A stretch of 35,428 bases of DNA, from positions 1 through 35,428 of IMG/VR virus record IMGVR_UViG_3300011114_000437. One strand, given 5' to 3'. The translations under genes were made by a program, and so were the position numbers. The notes under the pieces were generated by a model, which did no database searches, was not told the DNA's origin, and saw only the letters and a program-made list of their open reading frames with translations. Positions 1,761 to 35,428 of this stretch are shown one piece after another. Source of the DNA: a virus. How positions within the stretch are numbered: the stretch's first letter is position 1; every line of letters starts with the position of its first letter.

Positions 1761-2129
1761 ATGGCGACATTTACAGAATTTTTATCAGTATTAAACTCAG
1801 CAAAACAACAAAGTATTTTCTGGCACAATCAAACCGAATCGTATGCAGAACATCGTACACTTAATGGATTCTATGATAAAATATTGGATTTATTGGATGG
1901 TTTAGTAGAAAGTACAGCAGGTATATATGGTAGACCTAAAGGATATGAGGCACATGATTTCGTAGATTGGACATCAACTGATGATACAATAAAATACTTT
2001 CAGAACTTATACAAATATGTTGAAACTGAAAGAACATCTTTATATTCAGAAACTTGGTTTCAGAATCAAATAGATGAAATCTCAGCACAAATAGCACAAA
2101 CAATTTACTTACTTACACTAAAGAAATAA
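1761..2129 (+). CDS. Ferritin-like / Dps-like small protein (DUF5856-type)
   Basis: 122 residues, helical throughout, with the pattern IFWHNQTESYAEHRTLNGFYD near residues 19-39, then a long amphipathic helix LDLLDGLVESTAGIYGRPKGY and a C-terminal helix ending in QTIYLLTLKK. From memory this fits phage proteins of the DUF5856 type, thought to be small four-helix ferritin-like proteins; family recall is moderate and metal binding is inferred. It sits 2 nt after the protease and 1 nt before the next gene, clearly in the same operon. No equivalent lies between the second protease copy (ends 34970) and the next gene (starts 34972), so it is an accessory gene present in only one version of the locus. 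Confidence 0.55.
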   Translation: MATFTEFLSVLNSAKQQSIFWHNQTESYAEHRTLNGFYDKILDLLDGLVESTAGIYGRPKGYEAHDFVDWTSTDDTIKYFQNLYKYVETERTSLYSETWFQNQIDEISAQIAQTIYLLTLKK

Positions 2130-2130
2130 T

Positions 2131-2547
2131 ATGTTAGGTAATCAACAAATATTAACTAAGTTAAAAGGATTAAGATTAGCAACGTGTCCTACGGCAACAA
2201 AGGATATACCAACTAATTTAAAGAATAGACAAAGATGTATTGACGAGGCGAATTATGGTCCTCTTAATCCAAACGAACCTAACGAAGATTATTGGATAGC
2301 TAAAGCAAAAGTATTCGGTGGTGAAGATATAGAAAGTGCAAAGAAAGCCCTTTGTGGTAATTGTTCATTCTTTGTTCAAACTAAAGCAATGTTAGAATGT
2401 ATTGCAGAAGGTATAGGTGGTGAAATAAAAGATGAGTGGGATACAATTGATGCAGGTAATTTAGGATATTGTGAAGCATTTGATTTTAAATGTGCAGCAA
2501 ATAGAACGTGTGATGCATGGGTGGTTGGAGGTCCTATCGTTGACTAG
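2131..2547 (+). CDS. Cysteine-rich conserved phage protein (version A copy)
   Basis: 138 residues with eight cysteines (C19, C36, C75, C78, C90, C114, C121, C127). The CGNC pair at 75-78 and the tail GYC-FKC-RTC suggest a bound metal or iron-sulfur centre (inference). I do not recognise a named function. A second, collinear copy of the same length lies at 34972-35388. The N-terminal ~30 residues differ at several sites, but after that the proteins differ only at L112/V112. Nucleotide identity rises along the gene and becomes complete after position 2461. Confidence 0.6.
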   Translation: MLGNQQILTKLKGLRLATCPTATKDIPTNLKNRQRCIDEANYGPLNPNEPNEDYWIAKAKVFGGEDIESAKKALCGNCSFFVQTKAMLECIAEGIGGEIKDEWDTIDAGNLGYCEAFDFKCAANRTCDAWVVGGPIVD

Positions 2548-2587
2548 TAATTTAATACATAATAAATTAGCTCAATACTTTGCAAAA
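2462..2587 (+). repeat. Internal partner of the terminal repeat
   Basis: Same 126 bases as 35303-35428. Its location 2.46 kb inside the window, and not at base 1, is what argues against a simple direct terminal repeat. Confidence 0.9.
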
Positions 2588-4435: not shown

Positions 4436-4633
4436 ATGGCAAATCAAACAAAACAAAACGAAATCGCAGAAGCAATTGACAATCTAGCATCAGTATTAGA
4501 CTATACTGAAATGCATGGACCAAACAAACAATGTGGAATGATTGGAGTATCAATGACAGAAGCAGTTTACTCCTTAGCAATCAACATCGGACGAATTGCA
4601 GATGTAATGGAAAAGCAATCAAAACAAAAGTAA
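4436..4633 (+). CDS. Small early protein, unknown function
   Basis: 65 residues, first gene after the early promoter and immediately closed by a strong terminator, so it can be made as a separate short message. It is helical and has two cores (AEAIDNLASVLDYTEMHG and TEAVYSLAINIGRIADVMEK). There is no known catalytic motif and no membrane segment. Its position as the first, transcriptionally insulated gene suits an immediate-early host-interaction or regulatory protein (inference). Start chosen at ATG 4436; a competing 23-codon ORF from ATG 4409 in another frame is less convincing. Confidence 0.55.
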   Translation: MANQTKQNEIAEAIDNLASVLDYTEMHGPNKQCGMIGVSMTEAVYSLAINIGRIADVMEKQSKQK

Positions 4634-4638
4634 AACAC

Positions 4639-4664
4639 AAAGGGGGTGAAAATCCCCCTTTTAT
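4639..4664 (+). terminator. Strong Rho-independent terminator after the first early gene
   Basis: A perfect 8-bp stem, AAAGGGGG (4639-4646) with CCCCCTTT (4654-4661), loop TGAAAAT, followed by T-rich TTTTATTA. It starts 6 nt after the stop at 4633. No promoter of the usual kind is visible between it and the next gene at 4690, so expression of the later early genes needs read-through or an unseen promoter. Confidence 0.8.
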
Positions 4665-4689
4665 TAATAAACACAAAAATAAAACGAAA

Positions 4690-5058
4690 ATGGCACAGAT
4701 GAAAGAAATTGAAGGTTACAATGGGTATTTTATAGATACTGATGGTAATGTATGGACAACTAAGAAACACAAAGGAAAGACTGGTTTAACTAAACTAACT
4801 CTATCTAAAAAGAAAACAGGTTACTTATATGCTAACATTTATTGGGGTAACTCTAATAATGAAAGGAGTTCACTAAGAGTAAATAGATTAGTATATCAGA
4901 CATTTGTAAGTTGTATACCTGAAGGATTTGTTATAGACCATATTAATGATACCAAAGATGACAATAGATTAGATAATTTACAAATGTTATCGGTAAAAGA
5001 AAATACAAAGAAGTATTGGAAAACACCGCCGGCACAATTAAGAAAAAAAACTATATAA
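4690..5058 (+). CDS. HNH endonuclease (homing type)
   Basis: 122 residues from ATG 4690; an upstream ATG in frame (4531) would run back through the terminator and the previous gene and is rejected. N-terminus MAQMKEIEGYNGYFIDTDGN is NUMOD-like. The HNH part is VNRLVYQTF (position 65 is Asn where VHRLV is usual) and VIDHINDTKDDNRLDNLQML (H84). The His-to-Asn change at the first position may weaken or alter metal/catalytic function. Followed 1 nt later by the DUF1376-like gene. Confidence 0.75.
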   Translation: MAQMKEIEGYNGYFIDTDGNVWTTKKHKGKTGLTKLTLSKKKTGYLYANIYWGNSNNERSSLRVNRLVYQTFVSCIPEGFVIDHINDTKDDNRLDNLQMLSVKENTKKYWKTPPAQLRKKTI

Positions 5059-5587: not shown

Positions 5588-6181
5588 ATGGTAAGATTAA
5601 CAACAGAACTATTCAGAACTCCGGGAATAGTATTTAATGAAAGAACAGGAGAGGAATTTGATTTAACTAATATATTAACAGTATCAAAAACAGGAAATGT
5701 ATTTGTATTAGCTAGAGTTCATAATGGTAAATCTTTAGATGGTAGATTTATTGTTGGTAGACCTAATAAAACAAATCATATTCAGATTGGTATTACTGAT
5801 GATAAGGGTAAAAAAAGATTTATATATGTACATAGATTAGTAGCACACGCATGGTTAAAGAGAGAAGTATATCAAACAGATGTAATGCATTTAGATGATA
5901 ACCCATTAAACAATCATATAAGTAATCTCAGATGGGCTACTTGTCAAGATAACATAGATGATATGATTTCAAAAGATAGAGATAATTTCTATGGTAAAAA
6001 GAAAGCATGTTCAGATGAAATAATGATTAAGATATGGAAAATGGGTAAGGGTGGAATAAATATGAAACCTAGACATATTCATGAATTATTTCCAACTATG
6101 AGTTATGAAACTTTATATCCAATGTGTCATGGTACATCTAAACGATTACAAAGATACCTTAGAAATAATTTGGTAAAGTAA
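5588..6181 (+). CDS. HNH endonuclease, large variant
   Basis: 197 residues, longer than the other HNH proteins here. The core is YVHRLVAHAWLK (near residues 79-90), then VMHLDDNPLNNHISNLRWAT, giving the His-Asn-His-like pattern with H-D-D-N replacing H-x-D-x-N. The N-terminal ~70 residues contain FNERTGEEFDLTNIL and a beta-rich region. The C-terminal 60 residues (SDEIMIKIWKMGKGGINMKP onward) look like a helix-turn-helix DNA-recognition tail, as in other homing nucleases. It follows the DUF1376-like gene by 18 nt. Confidence 0.75.
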   Translation: MVRLTTELFRTPGIVFNERTGEEFDLTNILTVSKTGNVFVLARVHNGKSLDGRFIVGRPNKTNHIQIGITDDKGKKRFIYVHRLVAHAWLKREVYQTDVMHLDDNPLNNHISNLRWATCQDNIDDMISKDRDNFYGKKKACSDEIMIKIWKMGKGGINMKPRHIHELFPTMSYETLYPMCHGTSKRLQRYLRNNLVK

Positions 6182-8966: not shown

Positions 8967-9366
8967 ATATTATACATATATTCATAAGCGTTTAGATGGT
9001 AGTATATTTTATGTAGGCAAGGGGTGTAGAAATAGAGCATATACACGTTATTATAGAAATTCCAATTGGCATATTGAAGCAAATAAAGGATATGAAATTG
9101 AAATAGTTAACGATAATTTATTAGAAAAAGATGCATATGCTTTGGAAAAGAAATTGATATTATATTATGGAATAGATAATCTTACTAATATTGATAAAGG
9201 TGGAAAAAGTATAAAACCTATTGATGAAAATCTTGAAAGATTAAAAGCTAAATTAGATACATTATTCAATCTAATATACATTAAGCATAATATACATAAA
9301 CTTATTAAAGATGAAAGTATTAAAGAGCAATTACTATTATTAAATCAGTTAAGTAAATGGAACTGA
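8938..9366 (+). CDS. GIY-YIG endonuclease inserted between the terminase genes
   Basis: 142 residues. N-terminal GIY-YIG-like core: YYTYIHKRLDGSIFYVGKGC (residues ~10-29) with downstream Arg residues (RNRAYTRYYRN) and a catalytic-type Glu region (ALEKKLILYYG). The C-terminal third is helical. The gene overlaps the small terminase gene by 29 nt and the large terminase gene by 10 nt, so it is wedged into a normally compact gene pair, as free-standing homing nucleases often are. Confidence 0.75.
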   Translation: MAMIKQKQIKYYTYIHKRLDGSIFYVGKGCRNRAYTRYYRNSNWHIEANKGYEIEIVNDNLLEKDAYALEKKLILYYGIDNLTNIDKGGKSIKPIDENLERLKAKLDTLFNLIYIKHNIHKLIKDESIKEQLLLLNQLSKWN

Positions 9367-10535
9367 AGATAACAACAACTAAAACGTTTGAGAATTGCTA
9401 TAACTCTAAAGCAAAAATACAATTACATCAAGGTAGTGCAAGAAGTGGCAAGTCATATAGTATAATTCAGTTTCTAATAGTAAAAGCATTAGAAGAAAAG
9501 AAATTAATATCAGTAGTAAGAAAAACATTTCCAGCACTTAGAACATCTGCATTACGTGATTTTAAGGATGTCATGAAAGAATTAGGTCTATGGGATGAGG
9601 AAAGATGGATGGCAACTGAGCATACATTTACATTTGATAATGATTCACAAATAGAATTCTTTTCAACCGATAGTGCAGAAAAGCTGAAAGGATTAAAAAG
9701 AGATATACTCTGGGTAGATGAAGCAAATGAATTAAATCATGAGCAGTTTATGCAACTAGCCATTAGAACAACAGGTCAAATACTCCTATCATTCAACCCC
9801 TCATTTTCACCAAAGCATTATATAATGAGTGAGTTAGCGGTTAGAGATGATACAGAATTATTTGTTACTACATACAAAGACAATCCTTACCTACCATTAG
9901 AGCAAGTTCAGTTCATTGAAAAGTATAGAGATACAAACCCACGCTATTGGATGACATATGGTTTAGGGCAGTTTGCAGTGAATGAGAAGCAGATATATGA
10001 ATTTGAGATAGTAGATGAGTTTGATTTCGATACTGCTGATTTTATTTGCTTTGGTTTAGATATTGGATATGTGAGTGACCCTACGGCATTAGTCGGTATA
10101 TGGAAAGCGGGAAGTAAGCTAATAATAAATGAACACATATATCAGAAAGGATTAATTACACAGCAAATATTAGACGTCTTAAAAGGTAATGTATCAGAAA
10201 GAGATATCATAGTAGTAGATAGTGCAGAACCAAGATTGATAGACGAGATTAAAAGAGGTGGGTTTCCATTAGCAAGAGGAGTTAAGAAAGGTAAGGACAG
10301 TATTCAATGGGGTATAGATTTAGTTAAGCAATATAATTTGGTAATACCGAAAAATAATAGTAACTTAATAGAAGAATTATATTCATACGAATGGGTAGAT
10401 GATGGCAATGGTGGTGTAACAAATATACCAATAGATGCGAACAATCACTTATTAGATGCTCTTCGTTATGGTGTAATGGAAATGTTAAATGCAAAAAAGA
10501 TTAATGCAGGTAAATATCAAATATCAATAAGATAA
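9357..10535 (+). CDS. terL: Terminase large subunit
   Basis: 392 residues, complete. ATPase domain: Walker A GSARSGKS (26-33), Walker B ILWVDE (117-122), coupling motif SFNPS (145-149). Nuclease domain: GLDIGYVSDPTALV (Asp235), VVDSAEPRLIDE (Asp288), NNHLLDALRYG (Asp367). This is the PBSX/Terminase_3 pattern; the protein cuts concatemers and pumps DNA into the prohead. Its start overlaps the GIY-YIG gene by 10 nt. All key residues are intact. Confidence 0.95.
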   Translation: MELKITTTKTFENCYNSKAKIQLHQGSARSGKSYSIIQFLIVKALEEKKLISVVRKTFPALRTSALRDFKDVMKELGLWDEERWMATEHTFTFDNDSQIEFFSTDSAEKLKGLKRDILWVDEANELNHEQFMQLAIRTTGQILLSFNPSFSPKHYIMSELAVRDDTELFVTTYKDNPYLPLEQVQFIEKYRDTNPRYWMTYGLGQFAVNEKQIYEFEIVDEFDFDTADFICFGLDIGYVSDPTALVGIWKAGSKLIINEHIYQKGLITQQILDVLKGNVSERDIIVVDSAEPRLIDEIKRGGFPLARGVKKGKDSIQWGIDLVKQYNLVIPKNNSNLIEELYSYEWVDDGNGGVTNIPIDANNHLLDALRYGVMEMLNAKKINAGKYQISIR

Positions 10536-10538
10536 GTT

Positions 10539-10931
10539 ATGGCGAGAAGTTTAAGAGAGTTAAGTAAGAGTTGTGGACAATGTGGAGTAGTATTCGATGA
10601 TAAACTAACTAACAAACAACCTAAAAGAGCATTATGTAAAGAATGTTATCAAATTGAATTAAAGAGTATCGCTAAAGCACAAAAGGATAAACGAGCAGAG
10701 ATAGGAGCAGTAGTAAATAGAGTAGCAATATATAATGATTATAAATTTGAGAATAGAGCAGAATTTTGGAAAGGGATAAATAAACAAATCCGTCCGTTAA
10801 CAAAAAGAGAAGATATAAGAGCATTCATCAGTAAACAAATGGATAGAATATTAGCGGATGTTAATTTAATGAAGTATTTAAGCTCGGTAACAATGGCAGA
10901 ACAAAGAAACGAATATAGAAACTTAAAATAA
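10539..10931 (+). CDS. Zinc-ribbon protein downstream of terminase
   Basis: 130 residues. CGQC (12-15) and CKEC (33-36) form a four-Cys zinc ribbon; the rest is basic and helical (AKAQKDKRAEIGAVVNRVAI). It probably binds nucleic acid or a protein partner; function unknown. 3-nt gap after terL. Confidence 0.55.
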   Translation: MARSLRELSKSCGQCGVVFDDKLTNKQPKRALCKECYQIELKSIAKAQKDKRAEIGAVVNRVAIYNDYKFENRAEFWKGINKQIRPLTKREDIRAFISKQMDRILADVNLMKYLSSVTMAEQRNEYRNLK

Positions 10932-10935
10932 AGAT

Positions 10936-11136
10936 ATGATAACGATAGATGGAAAAGAATACACTTTAGAGGAGATTACACAGGTCTTTGATTTATGTAG
11001 AGAACTATTACAGGCAAACGAAACAATGAGAGCCAATGTGATTGCAATGAGTGCCAAATTGGATAATGAGGAACTTAAGGTAAAACGATTATTGGGTGAA
11101 CTATACTTACAACAAAATAAAAATTATACAGCATGA
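10936..11136 (+). CDS. Small hypothetical, helical
   Basis: 66 residues with an N-terminal DGKEYTLEEI motif and two long helices, the second coiled-coil-like (NVIAMSAKLDNEELKVKRLL). No named family. Overlaps the next gene by 4 nt (ATGA). Confidence 0.5.
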   Translation: MITIDGKEYTLEEITQVFDLCRELLQANETMRANVIAMSAKLDNEELKVKRLLGELYLQQNKNYTA

Positions 11137-11792
11137 GAACAGAAATAGAAATTACAATGCCGGAGAGTTGGGCAGATGTTACATTAGAAAAGTATTTAGC
11201 ATTACAAAAAGATTTAGAAACATATAAAGATAATGAGGAAGCTCAAGTCGCATTTATGATATACCATTTATGCGGTATCAATGCTAAACAATTAAAATCT
11301 TTATCTAAGGCATCATATGATATTATTAAAGATAGTTTACAAAGCTTCTTAACTATACCTAAATTTGAATTACAAAGAATAATTAATATAGACGGAAAAG
11401 AATATGGATTTGAACCTAACCTATCTAAAATCAGTTATGGTGCATATGCAGATATAACTAAGTATGATACACTAACGATAGATGATAACTGGCCTAAAGT
11501 AATGAGTATCCTATATAGACCGGTAGAAAGAAAGCATGGTGATAATTATACTATCAAAGCATATGATGGTAAGATAGATGGTGAAACATTCCGTAAAGTA
11601 AAAATGGGAATACACTTTGGTACTCTGTTTTTTTTTGTGCATTTGTCAAAGGACTTACTGAGCTCTACCCTGAACTCTATGATAATGGAGGAGAGGGAGG
11701 AAGGTTACAGCACAATTTTAGCAAGAAGTGGGGCTCTTACGCAACGATTGTTGAACTCTGTGGAGGAGATGTCAGAGGGATACAAGAAATAG
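11133..11792 (+). CDS. Tail-assembly / T4 gp26-like protein, frame 0 product ending early
   Basis: 219 residues in frame 0. The N-terminal ~165 residues (TMPESWADVTLEKYLALQKD, SKISYGAYADITKYDTLTID, VMSILYRPVERKHGDNYTI) match my memory of a phage tail-assembly/T4 gp26-like family of Bacteroidota and marine phages. At 11628-11636 there is a run of nine T. After it, frame 0 reads unconvincing sequence (VHLSKDLLSSTLNSMIMEER...), whereas the -1 frame continues the expected C-terminal half (separate entry). Either the frame shifts at the T run, or the T count is wrong by one base. The 219-aa form could be a real second product, as in tail-chaperone pairs. Confidence 0.55.
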   Translation: MRTEIEITMPESWADVTLEKYLALQKDLETYKDNEEAQVAFMIYHLCGINAKQLKSLSKASYDIIKDSLQSFLTIPKFELQRIINIDGKEYGFEPNLSKISYGAYADITKYDTLTIDDNWPKVMSILYRPVERKHGDNYTIKAYDGKIDGETFRKVKMGIHFGTLFFFVHLSKDLLSSTLNSMIMEEREEGYSTILARSGALTQRLLNSVEEMSEGYKK

Positions 11793-11890
11793 TTCAATTA
11801 CCTTTAGAACAATGTTTACTCTTTTTAGCATTTAAGAGTGATAGAAATCTTTTAGAAAGTTTAATGCATAAGGAAGCACTGAATAGATAA
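11637..11890 (+). CDS. -1 frame continuation of the tail-assembly gene (frameshift product C-terminus)
   Basis: Reading on after the T9 run in the -1 frame (codons TGT at 11636, GCA at 11639) gives an open 84-codon extension to TAA 11888-11890. It includes FVKGLTELYPELYDNGGEGG, KKWGSYATIVELCGGDVRGI, QEIVQLPLEQCLLFLAFKSD and RNLLESLMHKEALNR. The K-W-G-x-Y-x-x-I ... GGD ... LPL-x-x-C-L-x-x-L-x-F pattern is what I expect for the second half of this family. The fused protein would be about 252 residues. T_TTT_TTT is a classic slippery heptamer; slippage of RNA polymerase on T9 would do the same. There is no ATG near the start of this frame, so separate translation is unlikely. Confidence 0.6.
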
Positions 11891-17580: not shown

Positions 17581-19242
17581 ATGATGGCAAATCTTACAAA
17601 ACACGTTATAGCAAATGGTGGTAAAATATATCCACTAATAATCCCAGCAGTAGAAACAAACGGAACAGGTCTAATGAATCCATCTATCTTTAATGATAAT
17701 GGAAAACTTATATGCAATTTAAGGCATGTAAATTATACTTTAGTTCATTGTGAAGGAAAACAGGTCTTTGGAAATAGACATGGACCCCTAGCTTATCTTA
17801 ATCCCGAAAACGATTTAACTCTCCGCACAACCAACTTTATGTTAGAGTTGAGTAAAGACATGTCCATAAAGAGATATACGAAAATTGATACCTTAAAATG
17901 GGATGTAGCACCATTGTGGGAGTTTGTAGGATTAGAGGATGGTAGATTAGTTAGGTGGGATGATACATTATGGATATCAGGCGTTAGAAGGGATACGACA
18001 ACTAATGGTGAAGGTAGAATGGAACTATCCGAATTAGATAAAGATTATAAAGAAATAAATAGATATAGAATAGAAGCACCAATTAACAAAGAAAGTTATT
18101 GTGAAAAGAATTGGATGGTAGTAGATGATTTACCAATGCATTATGTTAAATGGGCTAATCCAACTGAATTAGTTAAAGTAGATATCAATACATTACAAAG
18201 TGAGCAAGTTCTATTAAAAGAAGGATGGGGAACTTTACAAAATATGAGAGGTTCGTCACAAGTCATTCGTTATGGTGATAAAAGGATTTGTATTATACAT
18301 GAAACTGATTTGTGGAAAAATAAATTGGAACAAAGAAATGCTAAGTATACTCATAGATTTATAGTATGGGATTTAGATTGGAACATAGAACATATATCAG
18401 AAGCATTTAGTTTTATGGATGGAGAGATAGAGTTTTGTTGTGGAATGGCATTTGATAAGGATGATTTACTTATCTCATTTGCATTTCAGGATAACGCGGC
18501 ATTTATATTAAAGATACCACAATCACAAATCAATGCAATTATAGGAATATACGATGATTTTTCATTTGGAAAAGTTGATGGTCAATTAAGAGATGTAATA
18601 GAAAGAGAGATATTCAGAGATAAAGTTTATGAGAAATATGCAAAAGTTAAAGAAGGTGATGTAGTTGTTGATATTGGAGCTAACGTTGGTGCATTTACAT
18701 ATTCAATATTAAATAAGAAACCATCAAAAGTTTATTGTATAGAACCATCTAACTGCTTAATAAGTACATTAAAGAGTAATACTAAAAATGAATGTGTTTA
18801 CATAAATAAAGCAATAGAGGAAAAGAATGGAACTGCGGTATGTAATGAAGAAGTGCATGTATATCATCATTCAGGCTTAGAATATGAAACGATATCATTT
18901 ACTAATTTTATAAAAGAATTTGATATAAAGAAAATAGATTTTATGAAAGTAGATTGTGAGGGTGGCGAGTATCATATTTTTACAAAAGAAAACTTAAAAT
19001 GGATTAAAGCCAATGTATCTAATATAGCAGGTGAATTACATTTGTGGGGTACACATGATAGTTTAGATAATTTTATTACATTCAGAGATAATATACTAGC
19101 TAATGTAAATGAATACCATATACTAAATGCACATACATTAGAAGATGTTAAAAGTGATATATGGGATAATGAATGGTGTAAAAACTATTCATGGGGTAAT
19201 ACAGAACTAGCACAATTATTATTTTATATAAAAAACGATTAA
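17581..19242 (+). CDS. Fusion: GH130/GH43-like beta-propeller plus FkbM-type SAM methyltransferase
   Basis: 553 residues. Residues ~1-325 resemble the five-bladed beta-propeller of glycoside phosphorylases/hydrolases: MNPSIFNDNGKLICNLRH, FGNRHGPLAYLN, FVGLEDGRLVRWDDTLWISG, YCEKNWMVVDDLPMHYVKWA, MRGSSQVIRYGDKRICIIHE. Residues ~345-553 are an FkbM-like methyltransferase: SAM motif I VVVDIGANVGAFTYS (from residue 361), IEPSNCLISTLKSNT, and IDFMKVDCEGGEYHIF (near 455). The fusion suggests binding or trimming of a sugar and its methylation. The substrate could be host surface glycan or virion glycan (inference). Overlaps the next gene by one base. Confidence 0.6.
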   Translation: MMANLTKHVIANGGKIYPLIIPAVETNGTGLMNPSIFNDNGKLICNLRHVNYTLVHCEGKQVFGNRHGPLAYLNPENDLTLRTTNFMLELSKDMSIKRYTKIDTLKWDVAPLWEFVGLEDGRLVRWDDTLWISGVRRDTTTNGEGRMELSELDKDYKEINRYRIEAPINKESYCEKNWMVVDDLPMHYVKWANPTELVKVDINTLQSEQVLLKEGWGTLQNMRGSSQVIRYGDKRICIIHETDLWKNKLEQRNAKYTHRFIVWDLDWNIEHISEAFSFMDGEIEFCCGMAFDKDDLLISFAFQDNAAFILKIPQSQINAIIGIYDDFSFGKVDGQLRDVIEREIFRDKVYEKYAKVKEGDVVVDIGANVGAFTYSILNKKPSKVYCIEPSNCLISTLKSNTKNECVYINKAIEEKNGTAVCNEEVHVYHHSGLEYETISFTNFIKEFDIKKIDFMKVDCEGGEYHIFTKENLKWIKANVSNIAGELHLWGTHDSLDNFITFRDNILANVNEYHILNAHTLEDVKSDIWDNEWCKNYSWGNTELAQLLFYIKND

Positions 19243-20459
19243 TGATAAACACATTATTAAAAGCATACATTAACGATACTACAAATCCAAATATCTGTTT
19301 TGAATTAGGATATGAATATGAGAAGTTAGGTCAAACAGCATCAGCAGCAGGTTTCTATTTAAGAGCAACTGAGTTCGGTAATAATACGGAATTGAATTAT
19401 GAAGCAATGTTAAGAATGGCTTTATGTTTTGAAAAGCAAGGTAATAGATGGTTTATGATTAAAGGATTAATACTAAGAGCAATTAGTTTACTACCTAATA
19501 GACCGGAAGGACATAATTTATTAGCAAGAACATACGAAAGATGCAAAGAATGGCAAGAAGGATATACGGCAGCAGTAATAGGAAAGAATATAGCATGGGA
19601 TGAAAAGGATTCCCTAACTGATTTAGAATATCCTGGCGATTGGGTATTTGATTTTGAAAAGGGTGTATGTGCATGGTGGATAGGATTATTTGATGAGAGT
19701 GTAGCAATATTCAGAGAGTTAAATAAAAGAACTGATTTATGGCCTAATTATAAAACAGCAGTAGAAAATAATTTAGCTTCTTATGGTAACAATTGGAAAC
19801 AACCATCCATATATACCAATATACAATTTCCTAAACTAAGATATAAATTTGATGGTTCACATTTAATAAAGAAAAACTATTCACAATCATATCAGGACCT
19901 ATTTGTTCTTATGGCATTAGATGGTAAAGAGTTTGGTAGTTGGATTGAGATTGGTTGTGCACACCCTACTTACGGAAATAATACAAAATTATTAGAGGAA
20001 TTAGGTTGGGATGGTGTTAGCATTGATATTGATACAAATGTTGTCAGTAATTGGGTTGATAATAGAACAACGATACCCTATCAAATGGATGCAACTAAAG
20101 TAGATTGGGAAAAGATGCCTATATGGGGATTGGATAATATTACAGATTACTTACAAATAGATGTAGACCCACCTAATATTAGCTATGAGGTCTTATTAAA
20201 GATACCATTTTGGAAACATAAGTTCAGAGTAATTACATTTGAGCATGATTATTATATGGATGATAGTGTAAGAGAAAAGAGCAGAAAATATTTACGTTCA
20301 TTCGGTTATGAGTTAGTAGTAAACGATATAGCAGTAGATGAATACAGCTCGTATGAGGATTGGTGGGTACATCCTGAATTGGTTAATCCGAAAATAATCA
20401 ATCTTTTAAGGAGTAATTCAGAAATAAATCCTGCAAAGGGATATATTTTTGGTGAATAG
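19242..20459 (+). CDS. TPR-domain protein with FkbM-like methyltransferase domain
   Basis: 405 residues. Residues ~1-180 are helical repeats of TPR type (NICFELGYEYEKLGQTASAA, RAISLLPNRPEGHNLLARTY). Residues ~215-380 are a methyltransferase-like domain: YSQSYQDLFVLMALDGKEFG, SWIEIGCAHPTYGNNTKLLE (near residue 234), LGWDGVSIDID, DYLQIDVDPP, RVITFEHDYY. The E-I-G-x-A/C-x-P ... NT-x-x-LE ... GW-x-G-x-SID run is a Methyltransf_21/FkbM hallmark. Its start overlaps the previous stop (TAATG), so the two proteins are probably co-produced and act together on glycans; whether on virion or host is unknown. Confidence 0.6.
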   Translation: MINTLLKAYINDTTNPNICFELGYEYEKLGQTASAAGFYLRATEFGNNTELNYEAMLRMALCFEKQGNRWFMIKGLILRAISLLPNRPEGHNLLARTYERCKEWQEGYTAAVIGKNIAWDEKDSLTDLEYPGDWVFDFEKGVCAWWIGLFDESVAIFRELNKRTDLWPNYKTAVENNLASYGNNWKQPSIYTNIQFPKLRYKFDGSHLIKKNYSQSYQDLFVLMALDGKEFGSWIEIGCAHPTYGNNTKLLEELGWDGVSIDIDTNVVSNWVDNRTTIPYQMDATKVDWEKMPIWGLDNITDYLQIDVDPPNISYEVLLKIPFWKHKFRVITFEHDYYMDDSVREKSRKYLRSFGYELVVNDIAVDEYSSYEDWWVHPELVNPKIINLLRSNSEINPAKGYIFGE

Positions 20460-27918: not shown

Positions 27919-28326
27919 ATGAAAAAACATTTTGTATATGAGTTGGTTAATTTATTGGGAACAATTGAATATGTAGGTGAAACTAATAATCCTAAAGGAA
28001 GATTTAGTCACCATATATGTAAAGTTGGTAAATTTGCAAAAAGACAAGATATAATAATGAATATTGTTAAAGAATTTAATACTGAAAGAGAAGCTTGGGA
28101 TTTCCAATGTGAATTACAAAATGAATACGGATTAAAAACTGATAAAGAAATAATGAGTGAAGCAATGAAACATGTTGGATTTAAGAAAGGTGTGCAATCA
28201 TTAGGTGGTAAATCAGGCTTTAATTCTCAAAATATAGAACTTAAATGTCCTCATTGTAACAATATAGGAATTGGCAGAATAATGTATAGATGGCATTTTG
28301 ATAATTGCAAAAGGAGAACTATCTAA
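27919..28326 (+). CDS. GIY-YIG homing endonuclease with C-terminal zinc finger-like motif
   Basis: 135 residues. GIY-YIG core: FVYELVNLLGTIEYVGETNN (Y7...Y17 spacing), PKGRFSHHICKVGKF (Arg), EAWDFQCELQNEYGL (Glu). The C-terminus has CPHC...H-x-x-x-C (KCPHCNNIGIGRIMYRWHFD then NCK), a single zinc-finger-like motif as used for DNA recognition in this family. It has its own promoter and lies between tail genes, 1 nt before the next gene. Confidence 0.8.
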   Translation: MKKHFVYELVNLLGTIEYVGETNNPKGRFSHHICKVGKFAKRQDIIMNIVKEFNTEREAWDFQCELQNEYGLKTDKEIMSEAMKHVGFKKGVQSLGGKSGFNSQNIELKCPHCNNIGIGRIMYRWHFDNCKRRTI

Positions 28327-28327
28327 T

Positions 28328-31300
28328 ATGGGAGTTACATCACAACAAGGTTTTAAGTACAAATTAGTAGCATATCCTGACGATAATTTAGCTAATAGTA
28401 TTATATTAGACCTATTCAAAGATGAGGAAATTAAATTAAGTAATAATATCACAGGTCTTTTTGATTTGGGTTTATTACCTTCTGATTTTACACGCACTAT
28501 TACCCTACCTGGTTCTAAAAAGAACAATAATTTCTTTGAATTTGTTTATGATATATCGGTTGAAGACCCATATACATTTGCAACCAATCAAAAAGTTCCG
28601 TGTTATTTAGATTTTGACGGAATATATTTATCTAACGGCTATATACAATTAAATAAAGTAAATGTTTATCAAAATAAATTTATTGATTCATATGAAGTAA
28701 CAATTTATGGTGGATTAGCAAGTTTTGGTAGAGATTTGAAAACATACTTTCTTAGTGATTTAACTTCATTAACAGAATTTAACCATACCGCATCTTTATC
28801 AAATATAACAAGTAGTTGGGAAGGTAACTTATTTTCAGGCTCAATTGTATATCCTATGGCTGATTATGGTCAAAGATTAAGATATACTCCTACGGATACA
28901 AATAGTGGAATAGATAGTTTAACAGGTGCAATGTGTGTGCAAGATTTCAAACCTGCAATTAGAGTAAAAGAAGTATGGGATGCAATATTTACAGAATTTG
29001 GATACACTTACACTTCTGATTTTTTTAATGAAAGTTGGTGGGATGATGTATATATGATTTGTAATAAAACATTACGTTACCCAATATTTAATTCAGCATC
29101 TAATGGAACTTCATCAGTTGATTTAGAAACATATGGTAATTTTACGTTTGGACCAGTAAGTGGAAGTAATGCTATATCTCAATCAATGAATCCAGGTGGA
29201 ACATATCCTTTAAATTGGTATAATATTACAAGAAATCCATCAGGAATATTAAGTTCTTCTTTAGAATTTGATTTAGATATGAATAGTAATTTAAGGGGTG
29301 AAATAAATCTTAATTTTGAAATAGCACCATCAGGTAGTTTTGTTATTGGTTATGGGTATGGTGTTCCAAAATTTAATTTAATAATACAAGGATATATATC
29401 ATCAGCTTGGACAACTATAAGTACTATACCATTAACTAATATTAATAATAGAATGGCGCAAGTGAATACATATAATTCTGGCTCAACTAAAACAGAACGA
29501 TTTGATTTAGTACAAGAATGGAATCAAGTATGGGATGGTGGTATTTTTATTAATGGTTGTCCAAAAAATACACAATTAAGATTTGCATTACAAGTTGATA
29601 CATTAGATTTTGGTATTGATAATTTTACACTAAGAATGGATCCAGGTGGTCCAAAATCATTTCTATCGGTTAATAAAGTAAATCAAGCGGGAGAAGGATT
29701 AATAATGAATATACCATCTAATATGCCTATTGGTAGTAGTGGTCAAAATAGTGGTCAGACTAATGGTGTATTATTAATTGATTTTATTACTGCAATACAA
29801 AAGAAATTTAATTTAGTAATATATCCAAATAAAGAAAAACTTTGGGATTTTATTGTAGAGCCATTTAATACTTGGTATAAAGATGGTAGTATAAAAGATT
29901 TTAATAGATACATTAATCTAAATGATAAAATAGAAGCAACACCCGCAAATAACTTAGCAGTAAATAAATTAAACTTTGGTGATACCTTAGATACAGATTA
30001 TATATCTCAACAATTTGCTAAAGCAGCAAATAGAGAATATGGTAAATCATATTATGTAGATTTTGAAAATTATTTTTCACAAGGTGAATATACAGTTAAA
30101 TCTAGCTTTGCTAGTTCTCCATTAATTTATTTAGATGGAACTGGTTTAAGTGGAAGCCAAGTAGTTGTAAATTGTCCTACATGTAATAGTGTTACGGCAT
30201 CAAATTGTTATCAAATAAATTATGGTGGAGAAGGACCAGTAAGTTCTTCGGTTGCATATTATACAAATTGTGATGGGTCAGCATCAGCACAATGGATGGG
30301 TGGTACAATTATTAATGCATGGATTTGTTCACGTGTTAACCCAACATTAGATGGTAGTAATATAAGTTGGACATTATTACAACCATGTGTAACAGCATCA
30401 GCAGCAGTAACAAGTTCTATTAATAAAATGTATATACCAACTTTTATTAGTAGTATTACTTACGCACCAACTACTACACTACCACATATATATTTTTACA
30501 ATGGATTATTAGATTCTCAACCTTGGAATATTGAATCACAAAAAACATCAGCTATAGCTGCTACTGAATTTAATTCATTTCCATATTTTGATAATTATAA
30601 TACATTTGTATCAAATTCAGCTCCAACTGAAAATAATTTATCTTTACTTTTTAATAATGAGCAATCTGTATATGGAACAACACCAACTGAAAGTTTATAC
30701 TCAGAATATTGGTCAACATATGTAGATTTACTTTACAATCCGAGAACAAGATTATTTGATTGTAGTGCAATTATTCCCCTAGCAGATTATTTTAAGTTAA
30801 ACCTTAATGATATAGTAGAGTGGAGAGGTAACTATTACCATTTAAGAGCAATCAATGATTACAATTTATCTAATGGTGAATGTAAATTACAATTATTAGG
30901 ACCGGTTATTAGAGATGTAATTGCAAATGTATTACCTGAATTTAGTTGTGATTTTAATTTTGATATTGGAACATATACACCAGCAGAAAGTGCATCATTT
31001 ATAGTAGCACAATGTTTTGGAGCATCACAATTACAGGTATCATTTACATCATCTCTTAGTATGAGTATTGGTGAATCGTTTACATTCCCTGCAGAATACG
31101 CATTAGATGATTGTTGGTATGTATCCTCATCATTTAGTGGAGCATTAGATTTAAGTAATGTAAGTGTATCTCAATCATTTGTAGATTGTAGTGCATGTTC
31201 AGCATCATTACATCCAGAACCACCTCCACCACCTCCAGTATGTGAAGCAACACAATGGAAAATTGATAATAGTGCAAGTGGATTAGGTAGTTTTTATGGT

Positions 31301-31432
31301 GGATTAGATTGTGATGATAATAATGTAGGAGGGTATGTAGATGCATATAATATTGGATTTACAGTTTGTATAAAAGACGGAACATTAACAACTACTGGAT
31401 TTCCAGTAGTAACAGTAGATGCAATTTGTTAA
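28328..31432 (+). CDS. Large tail protein (distal tail / baseplate hub candidate)
   Basis: 1034 residues from ATG 28328, two bases after the GIY-YIG stop; an in-frame ATG at 28298 would overlap that gene and adds nothing conserved. N-terminus: GLFDLGLLPSDFTRTITLPG, VPCYLDFDGIYLSNGYIQLN, YEVTIYGGLASFGRDLKTYF, a pattern shared with large tail proteins of Bacteroidota phages. The middle is strand-rich. Near residues 610-635 is a Cys-rich stretch (VVNCPTCNSVTASNCYQINY). The C-terminus has a Pro run (HPEPPPPPPVC) and a final Gly-rich domain. Second largest protein after no other; clearly a virion part, precise role inferred from size and order before the tape measure. Confidence 0.6.
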   Translation: MGVTSQQGFKYKLVAYPDDNLANSIILDLFKDEEIKLSNNITGLFDLGLLPSDFTRTITLPGSKKNNNFFEFVYDISVEDPYTFATNQKVPCYLDFDGIYLSNGYIQLNKVNVYQNKFIDSYEVTIYGGLASFGRDLKTYFLSDLTSLTEFNHTASLSNITSSWEGNLFSGSIVYPMADYGQRLRYTPTDTNSGIDSLTGAMCVQDFKPAIRVKEVWDAIFTEFGYTYTSDFFNESWWDDVYMICNKTLRYPIFNSASNGTSSVDLETYGNFTFGPVSGSNAISQSMNPGGTYPLNWYNITRNPSGILSSSLEFDLDMNSNLRGEINLNFEIAPSGSFVIGYGYGVPKFNLIIQGYISSAWTTISTIPLTNINNRMAQVNTYNSGSTKTERFDLVQEWNQVWDGGIFINGCPKNTQLRFALQVDTLDFGIDNFTLRMDPGGPKSFLSVNKVNQAGEGLIMNIPSNMPIGSSGQNSGQTNGVLLIDFITAIQKKFNLVIYPNKEKLWDFIVEPFNTWYKDGSIKDFNRYINLNDKIEATPANNLAVNKLNFGDTLDTDYISQQFAKAANREYGKSYYVDFENYFSQGEYTVKSSFASSPLIYLDGTGLSGSQVVVNCPTCNSVTASNCYQINYGGEGPVSSSVAYYTNCDGSASAQWMGGTIINAWICSRVNPTLDGSNISWTLLQPCVTASAAVTSSINKMYIPTFISSITYAPTTTLPHIYFYNGLLDSQPWNIESQKTSAIAATEFNSFPYFDNYNTFVSNSAPTENNLSLLFNNEQSVYGTTPTESLYSEYWSTYVDLLYNPRTRLFDCSAIIPLADYFKLNLNDIVEWRGNYYHLRAINDYNLSNGECKLQLLGPVIRDVIANVLPEFSCDFNFDIGTYTPAESASFIVAQCFGASQLQVSFTSSLSMSIGESFTFPAEYALDDCWYVSSSFSGALDLSNVSVSQSFVDCSACSASLHPEPPPPPPVCEATQWKIDNSASGLGSFYGGLDCDDNNVGGYVDAYNIGFTVCIKDGTLTTTGFPVVTVDAIC

Positions 31433-31741: not shown

Positions 31742-31891
31742 ATGATAAAAAATATAATTGATTTATTAGCAATGGATGAACATTACAACATTTCAGAGCG
31801 GGTAGAAATTGCTAAAGGTAAATATGAATATATAAATACTTGGAAAAGTGCTTGGATAAAAATTAAAAGACATTTGAAACATGGCAGATAA
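31742..31891 (+). CDS. Small protein immediately before the tape measure
   Basis: 49 residues (MIKNIIDLLAMDEHYNISER onward), helical and basic at the end (KIKRHLKHGR). It overlaps the tape-measure start by 11 nt, so translation is probably coupled. This is the usual location of tail assembly chaperones, but it is much shorter than those and I see no slippery site, so the role is open. Confidence 0.45.
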   Translation: MIKNIIDLLAMDEHYNISERVEIAKGKYEYINTWKSAWIKIKRHLKHGR

Positions 31892-33863
31892 GAAAATAAA
31901 AATAGAAGTTGATTTAGATGCAGAACCATCCATTGCGCAGTTAAAGAAATTAAAATTAGCATTAAAAGAAACTACTGCTGGTAGTGATGATTGGAACAAA
32001 TATAAAAATGCTATCAATGATACTGAGGATGCATTAAAATCTGCCGGTAAAGGTGCAGATAACTTTGCTGAAATCATAGGAACATTACCAGGACCATTAG
32101 GTGACTTAGGTAATAAATTAGGTAGTACAGTTAATACATTAAAAATATTTGGTGGTATTAAATTAGATGCATTAAAAAATTCATTTACAGAATTAGGTAA
32201 GGATATTGGACAAGCAGGTAGTAGTATACTAAAAATTACAGGTATACAAAAACTATATACTATTACAACAGTTGCAATGTCTAAAGCATTACGATTTGTT
32301 GGTATAGAAGCAACTGCTGCATCCTTTGGTGTAAAAGCATTTAGTGCAGCATTGGTTGCAACTGGTATTGGTGCTATTGTAGTTGGATTAGGATTATTAA
32401 TTAGTGCATTTATGAATGCAGGCGATGAGGCAGATGTTACAGCAAATAAGGTAGCAAAATTAAATAAAGAGTTTGATAAATTAAGAACTGATGCTAAATT
32501 AAATGCTAACGAAACAATTGCTAGATTAAACGCAGAAGGTGCAACTCAAGAAACAATTGCCGCAGCTAAAAAGAAAATAATACAAGATGAATTAAATTTA
32601 GCTAGAAATGCATTTGACCAATATCAAACTCAAATGACAGCGGCTGAAATAATGGATGAAAAAGGGAGTGAAGGGTATAAAAAAGCATTAGAGGGAAGGA
32701 AACAGGCAGAAAAAGATATTAAGCAACTAAAATCTGATTTAAGAATAGCAGATTACAATGAGCAAGAAAGATTAAGAAAAGAATCTGAAAAAGAAATTAA
32801 ACCAGCTAAAGAAGACCCAGCGGTTAAAGCAAAAGAAGAAGCACTTAAATTAATTGCTAAAAATGAAAAAGAGGCAGCACTTTCTTTATTAGATGATAGA
32901 GAGCAAGCAAAGAGAAAAATTGTAAATGATTATAATGCACAAATTAAATTGGCAGCTGATAATGGTAAGGAAACATTTATATTAGAGGAAGCTAAATTAA
33001 AAGCATTACGTGAATTAAAAGATAAATACCAAAAAGAGGATGATGAAAAAGCTGAGGAAATAAAAGCCAAAGAAAGAGAAGCAGCATTTGAAACATTACA
33101 AAATCAAATTGATGATTTAACTGCTCAAAACGATTTGATAGATGATGATTTTGCACAAGATTTAGAAAGATTAGAGAATAAGCGTATATTATTAGATGAA
33201 CAAAAAACAATTGAACTTTCAAACTTAAAATTAACAGAAGCAGAAAGAATAAAGATAATTGCTAAATACGCTAAGCAAGAACAAGATATTGATAAATCAG
33301 TTACAGCAACAAAGAAAGCTGAAAAAGAAGCAAAACTACAATTACAATCACAATATGCAGATGCTATTGGAAGATTTGGTTCTATTTTACAACAAGCAGC
33401 AGGTGAAAATAAAAAGTTAGCAATCGCAGGATTATTAATTGAACAAGGAGCAGGTATTGCTAAAATTATTATTAACTCACAAGCAGCAGCATCAAAGGCT
33501 GGATATTTATCACCAAAGGGTATTTTAGAATTAATTTCAGGTGGGTTAGGTGTTGCCGCTGCAGTAATTGCAACTAAAAAAGGTATAGACCAAATCAATA
33601 AAGTAAATATACCAGGTGGTGGAAGTGGTGGTGGAGGTGATAGTAGCGCACAAGCACCATTACCGGCATATAATAGTGGAATGGCAATGAACACACCACA
33701 GATTAATACAACCGGTGGAGCAAATCCAGCAACACAAATCTCTCAAACAATACAAAATGCACAATCAGTTCCTATAAAAGCATATGTAGTAAGTGGTGAA
33801 ATTGCTTCTCAACAACAATTAGATAGAAGGGCTAATAGAGGTGCAACATTCAACTTAGGATAG
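31881..33863 (+). CDS. Tape measure protein (version B, complete)
   Basis: 660 residues. Start MADKKIKIEVDLDAEPSIAQ with helical N-terminus; hydrophobic segment near residues 145-180 (ALVATGIGAIVVGLGLLISA); long Lys/Glu-rich coiled coil (~190-490); second hydrophobic region (~505-570, IAGLLIEQGAGIAKIIINSQ); Gly/Ser/Pro linker (PGGGSGGGG); C-terminal tail KAYVVSGEIASQQQLDRRAN. Coiled coil plus two membrane-like segments is the standard tape measure layout; the length predicts a rather short flexible tail. Related to the truncated copy at 3-953. Confidence 0.8.
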   Translation: MADKKIKIEVDLDAEPSIAQLKKLKLALKETTAGSDDWNKYKNAINDTEDALKSAGKGADNFAEIIGTLPGPLGDLGNKLGSTVNTLKIFGGIKLDALKNSFTELGKDIGQAGSSILKITGIQKLYTITTVAMSKALRFVGIEATAASFGVKAFSAALVATGIGAIVVGLGLLISAFMNAGDEADVTANKVAKLNKEFDKLRTDAKLNANETIARLNAEGATQETIAAAKKKIIQDELNLARNAFDQYQTQMTAAEIMDEKGSEGYKKALEGRKQAEKDIKQLKSDLRIADYNEQERLRKESEKEIKPAKEDPAVKAKEEALKLIAKNEKEAALSLLDDREQAKRKIVNDYNAQIKLAADNGKETFILEEAKLKALRELKDKYQKEDDEKAEEIKAKEREAAFETLQNQIDDLTAQNDLIDDDFAQDLERLENKRILLDEQKTIELSNLKLTEAERIKIIAKYAKQEQDIDKSVTATKKAEKEAKLQLQSQYADAIGRFGSILQQAAGENKKLAIAGLLIEQGAGIAKIIINSQAAASKAGYLSPKGILELISGGLGVAAAVIATKKGIDQINKVNIPGGGSGGGGDSSAQAPLPAYNSGMAMNTPQINTTGGANPATQISQTIQNAQSVPIKAYVVSGEIASQQQLDRRANRGATFNLG

Positions 33864-33896: not shown

Positions 33897-34970
33897 ATGG
33901 ATAATCAACAATATGAAACTTACGAATTAATTCTTAAAGATGATGAGGATGAAGTATTTGCTTTATCTCTTGTCAATTCACCAGCAATCCAAAGTAATTT
34001 TGTATACTTTTCTGAGGATGGTATAAAAGAAGTAATTAAATTTGCAACAACAGATGAGGACCAAAGAACAATAGTAGGTCCAATTCTAATTCCTGATATG
34101 AAAATATTAAGAATGAAAGAGGATGGTAAAACTCCTTACTATGTAACATTTAGTAAAGATACAGTCCGCAAGATAGCTCAGAAATATATTAGAGATAATA
34201 ATGCAAACAATATTACATTAGAGCATGAAAAAAATGTAATGGGTGTATCATTAGTAGAAAGTTGGGTATCGGAAAGTTCTAAGTATGATAAGAGTAAAGC
34301 ATATGGTTTGACAATAAAGCCAGGAACGTGGATGGGTGTATTCAAAGTAGATAATGGAGAAGTTTGGAATAGGGTTAAAAGTGGTGAATATAAAGGAATA
34401 AGTTTAGAAGGTCTTTTCTCACACGAATTAATTAAAGCAAGTTTATTAGATTTAGATTTATTTGAAAAAGATATAACTGATTTAAGTGATATAGAAGCTG
34501 AAATAGTATTAAGTAGAATGAGAGCAATAATCAAAAAAGATAATAGATACGGAAGGGGTGAAAGAATTGAAATGGAATCTTATTCTGATTATGGTAGTGG
34601 TGTAAGAGGAAACGCTAAAAGAGGCAGAGAGTTAAACGAAAAAAATGGTAATAAATGTGCAACACAGGTTGGTAAAGTAAGAAGTGCTCAATTAGAAGCA
34701 GGAGAACCAATATCAGTTGAAACGCTAAAGAGAATGTACTCATACCTAAGTAGAGCAGAAGCATACTATGATGAAACAGATATGAATGCTTGCGGGACAA
34801 TTAGCTTCTTACTTTGGGGCGGTAAAGCAGGATTATCATATAGTAGAAATAAATTAAAAGAATTAGGATTGATTGAAGCAGAAGCACAACCATCAATACC
34901 AAACTCAACATATCCTGGCCAAAGAGCAAAAAAGATTATAGCACCAGCATTAATTGCACAAACTAAATAA
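33897..34970 (+). CDS. Putative prohead protease, XkdF/S78-like, with extra C-terminal domain (version B, long form)
   Basis: 357 residues. Residues ~1-222 align with the 988-1758 protein (see that entry for shared blocks; here EH at LEHEKNVMGVSLVESWV and KGISLEGLF). Residues ~223-330 form an added domain: YGSGVRGNAKRGRELNEKNG, KCATQVGKVRSAQLEAGEPI, SVETLKRMYSYLSRAEAYYD, ACGTISFLLWGGKAGLSYSR. This domain is common in phage prohead proteases of this type in my memory; its function is not known to me. The tail QPSI...YPGQ resumes the shared end, so the domain is a clean insertion or loss. Next gene starts 1 nt later. Confidence 0.7.
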   Translation: MDNQQYETYELILKDDEDEVFALSLVNSPAIQSNFVYFSEDGIKEVIKFATTDEDQRTIVGPILIPDMKILRMKEDGKTPYYVTFSKDTVRKIAQKYIRDNNANNITLEHEKNVMGVSLVESWVSESSKYDKSKAYGLTIKPGTWMGVFKVDNGEVWNRVKSGEYKGISLEGLFSHELIKASLLDLDLFEKDITDLSDIEAEIVLSRMRAIIKKDNRYGRGERIEMESYSDYGSGVRGNAKRGRELNEKNGNKCATQVGKVRSAQLEAGEPISVETLKRMYSYLSRAEAYYDETDMNACGTISFLLWGGKAGLSYSRNKLKELGLIEAEAQPSIPNSTYPGQRAKKIIAPALIAQTK

Positions 34971-34971
34971 T

Positions 34972-35388
34972 ATGCTAGGTAATCAAAAAATATTACACAA
35001 ACTTAAAGGATATCGTTTAGCACAATGTCCTACGGCAACGCAGGATATACCAACTAATCTTAAAAATAGGCAGAGGTGTATTGACGAGGCAAATTATGGT
35101 CCTCTTAATCCAAACGAACCTAACGAAGATTATTGGATTGCAAAAGCAAAAGTATTCGGTGGTGAAGATATAGAAAGTGCAAAGAAAGCCCTATGTGGTA
35201 ATTGTTCATTCTTTGTTCAAACTAAAGCAATGTTAGAATGTATTGCAGAAGGTATAGGTGGTGAAATAAAAGATGAGTGGGATACAATTGATGCAGGTAA
35301 TGTAGGATATTGTGAAGCATTTGATTTTAAATGTGCAGCAAATAGAACGTGTGATGCATGGGTGGTTGGAGGTCCTATCGTTGACTAG
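34972..35388 (+). CDS. Cysteine-rich conserved phage protein (version B copy)
   Basis: 138 residues from ATG 34972; an upstream in-frame ATG (34954) lies inside the protease gene and is rejected. Same eight cysteines as the copy at 2131-2547. Differences cluster in the first 30 residues (Q6K, T9H, L14Y, T18Q, K24Q) plus L112V. The stop and everything after it match the other copy base for base to the end of the window. Confidence 0.6.
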   Translation: MLGNQKILHKLKGYRLAQCPTATQDIPTNLKNRQRCIDEANYGPLNPNEPNEDYWIAKAKVFGGEDIESAKKALCGNCSFFVQTKAMLECIAEGIGGEIKDEWDTIDAGNVGYCEAFDFKCAANRTCDAWVVGGPIVD

Positions 35389-35428
35389 TAATTTAATACA
35401 TAATAAATTAGCTCAATACTTTGCAAAA
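35303..35428 (+). repeat. Exact terminal copy of 2462-2587 (126 bp)
   Basis: 126 identical bases in the same orientation, ending at the last base of the window; the base before (35302 G, 2461 T) differs. The match continues upstream as a gapless but diverging alignment to 34972/2131. Offset 32,841. Confidence 0.9.
35354..35428 (+). CDS. 5' fragment of the hypothetical gene seen at 2513-2896
   Basis: Identical to 2513-2587; truncated by the window end. Same start uncertainty as the full copy (ATG 35354 or TTG 35381). Confidence 0.4.
   Translation, partial: MHGWLEVLSLTSNLIHNKLAQYFAK

Follow-up and report, generated by a model that had tools for sequence, protein, structure and literature searches.

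A putative programmed -1 slip at a conserved T run gives a terL-adjacent phage gene two predicted products

Two predicted products from one gene

Comparative analysis suggested that a phage gene located behind terL very probably undergoes programmed -1 recoding and yields two functional products, and the slip at the T run in this gene was almost certainly programmed. The gene was found in the window, which was the whole 35,428-nt stretch (positions 1 to 35,428) of IMG/VR record IMGVR_UViG_3300011114_000437. Normal decoding would yield a 219-aa product, and a -1 slip at nine consecutive Ts would yield a 252-aa product carrying a conserved C-terminal domain that was modelled as helical. The short and long products would have 168 N-terminal residues in common.

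Based on the open reading frame and its homologues, the 0-frame ORF of the short product was placed at positions 11133 to 11792 on the plus strand, with 168 aa before the slip site and a 51-aa 0-frame tail. The T9 run was located at positions 11628 to 11636 (plus strand), exactly where a preliminary description of the sequence had put it; the run starts at codon position 1 and is read as three Phe codons in frame. The slippery heptamer T_TTT_TTT that had also been pointed out was in phase at positions 11630 to 11636 (plus strand). The -1 extension (11636 to 11890, plus strand) contained 84 codons and a stop codon at 11888 to 11890, and joining it to the upstream codons by a -1 slip at T9 gave the 252-aa product with an 84-aa ending. 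The 0-frame tail and the -1 extension shared positions 11637 to 11792 (plus strand), a doubly coding overlap marked by selection against 0-frame stops. No other T run of 8 or more was present in the window. Because about 0.5 T runs of 9 or more were expected in the window from base composition, the T9 run by itself was unsurprising.

Conservation of the -1 arrangement

An IMG/VR scan with the N-terminal half as the query yielded 45 loci. All loci that spanned the slip site (43 of 43), as well as the window, contained an in-phase heptamer followed by a -1 extension of 84 to 89 codons. Alignment-based scans each produced at least 550 confirmed relatives. When both halves were used in profile searches, and all loci among the matches listed were considered, 372 contained both halves; these loci were IMG/VR contigs plus one Nonlabens phage, and some were overlapping copies of the same contig. 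Among the matches listed, the C-terminal half was in the -1 frame behind the T run in all 372 loci with both halves. Thus, the 84-residue -1 ending, which had been called well formed in the window, was a conserved feature.

The heptamer T_TTT_TTT was in phase in all 372 loci, and the run was T7, T9, or T10. Among the matches listed, the loci represented 228 distinct contexts, with T9 in 209, T10 in 17, and T7 in 2, meaning that a T9 or T10 homopolymer was found at the frame transition in 226 of 228 contexts. Outside the slip site, about 1,550 kb of sequence from these loci contained just 13 T runs of 9. The preliminary description had proposed looking in related phages for a conserved run and had counted homologues whose continuous frame matches the 0-frame tail as evidence against the shift. 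The run was conserved as indicated above, and none of the relatives examined among the matches listed had a run that joined both frames or a continuous 0 frame that matched the C-terminal half.

Both halves were recognisable down to about 25 to 30% identity, and a distant subgroup at this level of identity was reached via the cultured Nonlabens phages P12024S and P12024L. In P12024S (gp38/gp39) and P12024L (Inhavirus), both halves were homologous to those described here, and the T9 run and the -1 relation were the same. The records of these phages list two hypothetical proteins, which share about 30% of their residues with the protein of the window.

The P12024S and P12024L records annotate a 55-aa -1 ORF with an ATG that overlaps the 0-frame stop, and an ATG is present somewhere in the open -1 frame of 30 of the 84 representatives, as might be expected if the -1 ORF were a separate gene with its own start. 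However, the window lacked an ATG, GTG, or TTG in the open -1 stretch, no start position was common to the family among the 84 representatives, and the conserved -1 residues (YPE and G-L) directly adjoined the T run. We consider a separate gene highly unlikely. Phase variation at the DNA level, in which the run length would vary in the population and switch the C-terminal domain on and off, seemed just as improbable. A homopolymer this long could vary at replication, but the in-frame state was found in none of the assembled contigs, whose consensus could conceal minority lengths.

Selection on the overlap

Stop and tail-length statistics were calculated for the 84 representatives, which were under 90% identity. 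The mean 0-frame tail was 48.7 codons long, compared to control tails of 9.6 codons when the -1 frame was recoded with random synonymous codons and 16.7 codons when its own synonymous codons were shuffled. Because the representatives are related, the stop counts are non-independent events; with this relatedness, 2 zero-frame stops were observed in overlap codons 1 to 36 versus 157.8 expected from codon usage, and 367 were observed versus 378.6 expected in an internal control of equal relatedness, the same -1 domain behind the 0-frame stop. The 0-frame continuation, which had been described as unconvincing, was therefore misjudged. Stop depletion was repeated in the distant subgroup, with 4 zero-frame stops in the overlap versus 79.5 expected and 183 behind the 0-frame stop versus 161.7 expected.

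Third positions of the -1 frame varied least in the overlap, where their entropy was 0.92; the values were 1.31 behind the overlap and 1.32 in the N region. Similarly, the mean at fourfold sites without a possible stop was 0.87 in the overlap (4 columns) versus 1.31 in the N region (11 columns). Twofold sites showed no clear difference.

The stop counts indicated that the 0-frame tail is under strong selection to remain open and is a real protein end. Because 0-frame stops were depleted in the overlap, and again in the distant subgroup, both products appear to be used. Comparative genomics therefore provided strong support for the earlier proposal that 219-aa and approximately 252-aa products are made from one start. 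The overlap of approximately 49 codons cleanly illustrates selection for dual coding and has an internal control of its own.

These data also bear on whether the frame transition could be a sequencing or assembly error, with a true run of T10 or T7 and a continuous gene. Homopolymers are error-prone, and one related phage has a T8 run in one plasmid record and a T7 run in another. In contrast, T9 to T10 runs were found in hundreds of contigs and in two cultured phages, and selection keeps the 0-frame tail open, which excludes an error or a dead gene. Based on the hundreds of loci and the selection on the 0-frame tail, we rejected sequencing error at the family level, and it is barely credible as an explanation for the window.

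Polymerase or ribosome

The preliminary description had hesitated between a ribosomal slip and a transcriptional slip, and this hesitation was justified. The conservation of run length and the T7 clade point in opposite directions. The T9 run alone cannot separate the ribosome from the polymerase, because every run of at least nine Ts includes an in-phase heptamer regardless of how it is positioned relative to the codons. The in-phase T_TTT_TTT in 228 of 228 distinct contexts is what ribosomal slippage would require, but the T7 clade supplies the only diagnostic contexts.

From the sequence patterns, we favored RNA polymerase slippage on T9 to T10 over tandem ribosomal slippage alone, and we give polymerase slippage alone about an even chance of being correct. 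Some of the mRNA would then contain 10 (or 7) Us and would encode the long product in one continuous frame. This preference was based on a constant run length, varying codon layouts, the absence of T8, an invariant T, and the lack of an unusual fold. Specifically, the run length was 9 to 10 in 160 of 162 tree rows, while the run had four codon layouts with at least 11 changes on the 162-row tree. T8 was never found on this tree or in the 228 contexts among the matches listed. In the 54 clusters in which changing the last heptamer base to C would alter neither protein, this base was always T, although TTC accounted for about a quarter of the Phe codons there. In addition, nine Ts is a known slippage-prone length (PMC5009743, PMC1088944). 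Two observations weigh against the polymerase. The T7 clade (L025 and L346; also L045), in which poor transcriptional slipping would be expected, has a normal conserved extension, and amino acid requirements also limit the bases of the run that lie outside the heptamer, so that T9 may be conserved partly at the protein level.

Ribosomal -1 frameshifting on U_UUU_UUU alone, in which the P-site and A-site tRNA-Phe would slip one base back, was a serious but somewhat less probable alternative. The T7 clade keeps the exact in-phase heptamer (GGT TTT TTT ATC and CAT TTT TTT ATC), as a ribosomal slip predicts. However, T8 would serve the ribosome and none was found among the loci examined, and TTC was never found at the last position in the 54 clusters in which it would be silent in both frames. 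No stimulatory fold was found around the site either: pseudoknot-free RNA folding showed no excess stability (z near 0), and Rfam gave sub-threshold chance matches only. Some ribosomal -1 sites function without a stimulator. Shine-Dalgarno-like motifs were present in just 27 of 84 representatives. The described cases of tail-chaperone recoding are ribosomal (PMC5009743). In E. coli, U_UUU_UUU is a poorer shift site than A_AAA_AAG (PMC5009743), but E. coli is not a host here. Polymerase and ribosomal slippage acting together is a rather unlikely third reading. With a T7 clade beside T9 to T10 clades, the level of the slip is directly testable.

A nine-base run at the frame transition is not peculiar to the family described here. 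The slippage run of Shigella mxiE consists of nine identical bases. Thermus dnaX, which has nine As in the sense strand, and IS elements also resemble the present family in this respect (PMC1088944, PMC5009743). The family differs from these slippage genes in having one T7 clade and in being known from DNA sequence alone.

Possible role of the protein pair

The two-product logic and weak PF10109 and PHROG matches suggested that a tail assembly chaperone pair is the likeliest role, and we consider this role probable. Membership in a chaperone family is not claimed because the gene is located behind terL and tape-measure-like genes are far away. The pair would act like the tail assembly chaperones lambda gpG/gpGT and P2 gpE/gpE', with many copies of the short product and few of the long product, and the long product would recruit a second partner via its extra C-terminal domain. 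By analogy with these systems, such chaperone-like working, with the long form bringing in a second partner, is also probable. The tail-chaperone-like logic proposed in the preliminary description was borne out as a two-product -1 pattern and a plausible role, but the support for a family assignment consisted of weak profile matches.

PF10109 (Phage_TAC_7, the P2 gpE family) was the Pfam family matched by most members (7 of 14; best E value, 5e-4), with matches in the first ~73 residues; in a wider set, 3 of 29 members matched. A Pfam search with the window protein itself gave no chaperone match. Among PHROG families, phrog_166 (annotated as tail protein) was matched at 2e-7 and phrog_3140 (annotated as tail assembly chaperone) at 0.017. 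The P2 gpE relatives available for profile comparison were near-identical and uninformative, and a genome-collection search gave a single match that was spurious. The T4 gp26-like family named in the preliminary description was rejected: no likeness to T4 gp26 was found, and T4 gp26 and gp51 match phrog_150, which no family member matches.

The N and C halves were modelled separately. The N half model had a pLDDT of 88.6, and the C half model, which was all helical, had a pLDDT of 73.5, a moderate confidence. PDB fold searches with either half gave no useful match, an absence that is no proof. Matches among viral models were uncharacterised phage proteins, including one weak BFVD match annotated as a tail assembly chaperone. 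BFVD proteins of 226 to 267 aa matched both halves weakly and may be single-frame fusions.

Like the gene described here, lambda gpG/gpGT has a common N terminus, a late -1 shift, and an extra domain on the long form. The slip site of lambda gpG/gpGT is G_GGA_AAG, whereas that of the present family is a T9 homopolymer. Unlike lambda gpG/gpGT, the family has its gene behind terL and at a distance from the tape measure gene, and it has a long overlap (mean, 49 codons) that is selected in both frames. P2 gpE/gpE+E' (PF10109) also uses a -1 shift, annotated in P2, to make a longer product. According to the P2 record, E immediately precedes the tape measure gene T, whereas the gene described here is behind terL; the PF10109 matches were weak, and sequence kinship between P2 gpE and the family is a possibility.

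We found no report of this recoding in the open literature, which covered few subscription papers. PHROGs places the two halves in separate families, phrog_32199 and phrog_38404. Databases have thus divided between two unrelated families what appears to be a single gene with two programmed products. The phage group that carries it is large and almost unannotated. Taken as a whole, the proposal that widespread, apparently Bacteroidota phages make a chaperone-like pair via polymerase slippage on T9 to T10, from a terL-adjacent gene with a dual-selected overlap of ~49 codons, is a tentative one. If the slip is transcriptional, RNA polymerase, rather than the ribosome, would set the product ratio of a tail-chaperone-like pair.

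Gene neighbourhood and host

In the window, terL (9357 to 10535, plus strand) is upstream of the two-product gene, and two small plus-strand ORFs of unknown function (10539 to 10931 and 10936 to 11136) are located between them. Upstream terL was found in 78 of 84 representatives and was absent from none that held more than 1.5 kb of upstream sequence; in all 78, no more than about 1.1 kb separated terL from the start of the two-product gene. A tape-measure-like gene of the window (phrog_1538; 31881 to 33863, plus strand) was far from the two-product gene. The distance to tape-measure-like genes was about 10 kb or more in the window, and in P12024S such a gene was about 6.4 kb downstream. The preliminary description had likewise noted that the gene adjoins terL and that the tape measure gene is distant. 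The usual chaperone position just upstream of the tape measure gene was found in neither the window nor P12024S.

The terL matches included phages of Bacteroides, Phocaeicola, and Flavobacterium, and the P12024S and P12024L isolates infect a flavobacterium. We infer that the window phage has a Bacteroidota host.

Several other features of the window and of related records were observed. Window positions 2109 to 2587 and 34950 to 35428 matched at 93.5% over 479 bases, and because the ends match at this level, the contig seems to run once around a circular or permuted genome about 32.8 kb in length and then overlap itself. What seems to be a divergent second copy occupies the first ~2.1 kb of the window: positions 3 to 953 (tape-measure end) resembled 31881 to 33863, and positions 988 to 1758 (phrog_24921 protein) resembled 33897 to 34970. 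Two closely spaced HNH endonuclease genes (4531 to 5058 and 5588 to 6181) were found upstream of terL. Behind collagen-like fibre genes, two adjacent large genes (17581 to 20459) had methyltransferase (FkbM-like) and TPR matches, and a function in glycan or fibre modification is possible. A 1044-aa protein encoded at 28298 to 31432 matched phrog_38559 in its first ~280 residues only; this is the family of P12024S gp45, whose record notes a Bacteroidetes-associated carbohydrate-binding domain.

Two records deposited as plasmids, CP045836.1 (L387) and NZ_CP040811.1 (L388), were assigned to Lysinibacillus pakistanensis and Escherichia fergusonii, respectively. They were 99.7% identical over 14 kb and carried the two-product gene family near a terminase gene, with broken frames in both (T8 in L387 and T7 in L388). 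They look like one phage contaminant with homopolymer errors. In Flavobacterium phage 6H (L262; region 10047 to 10927), gp10 precedes the tape measure gene by a few kb. Based on the models, 6H gp10 is possibly the weak fold match (191 aa) to the N half, and the unannotated stretch after it is open in other frames; this is perhaps another recoded chaperone.
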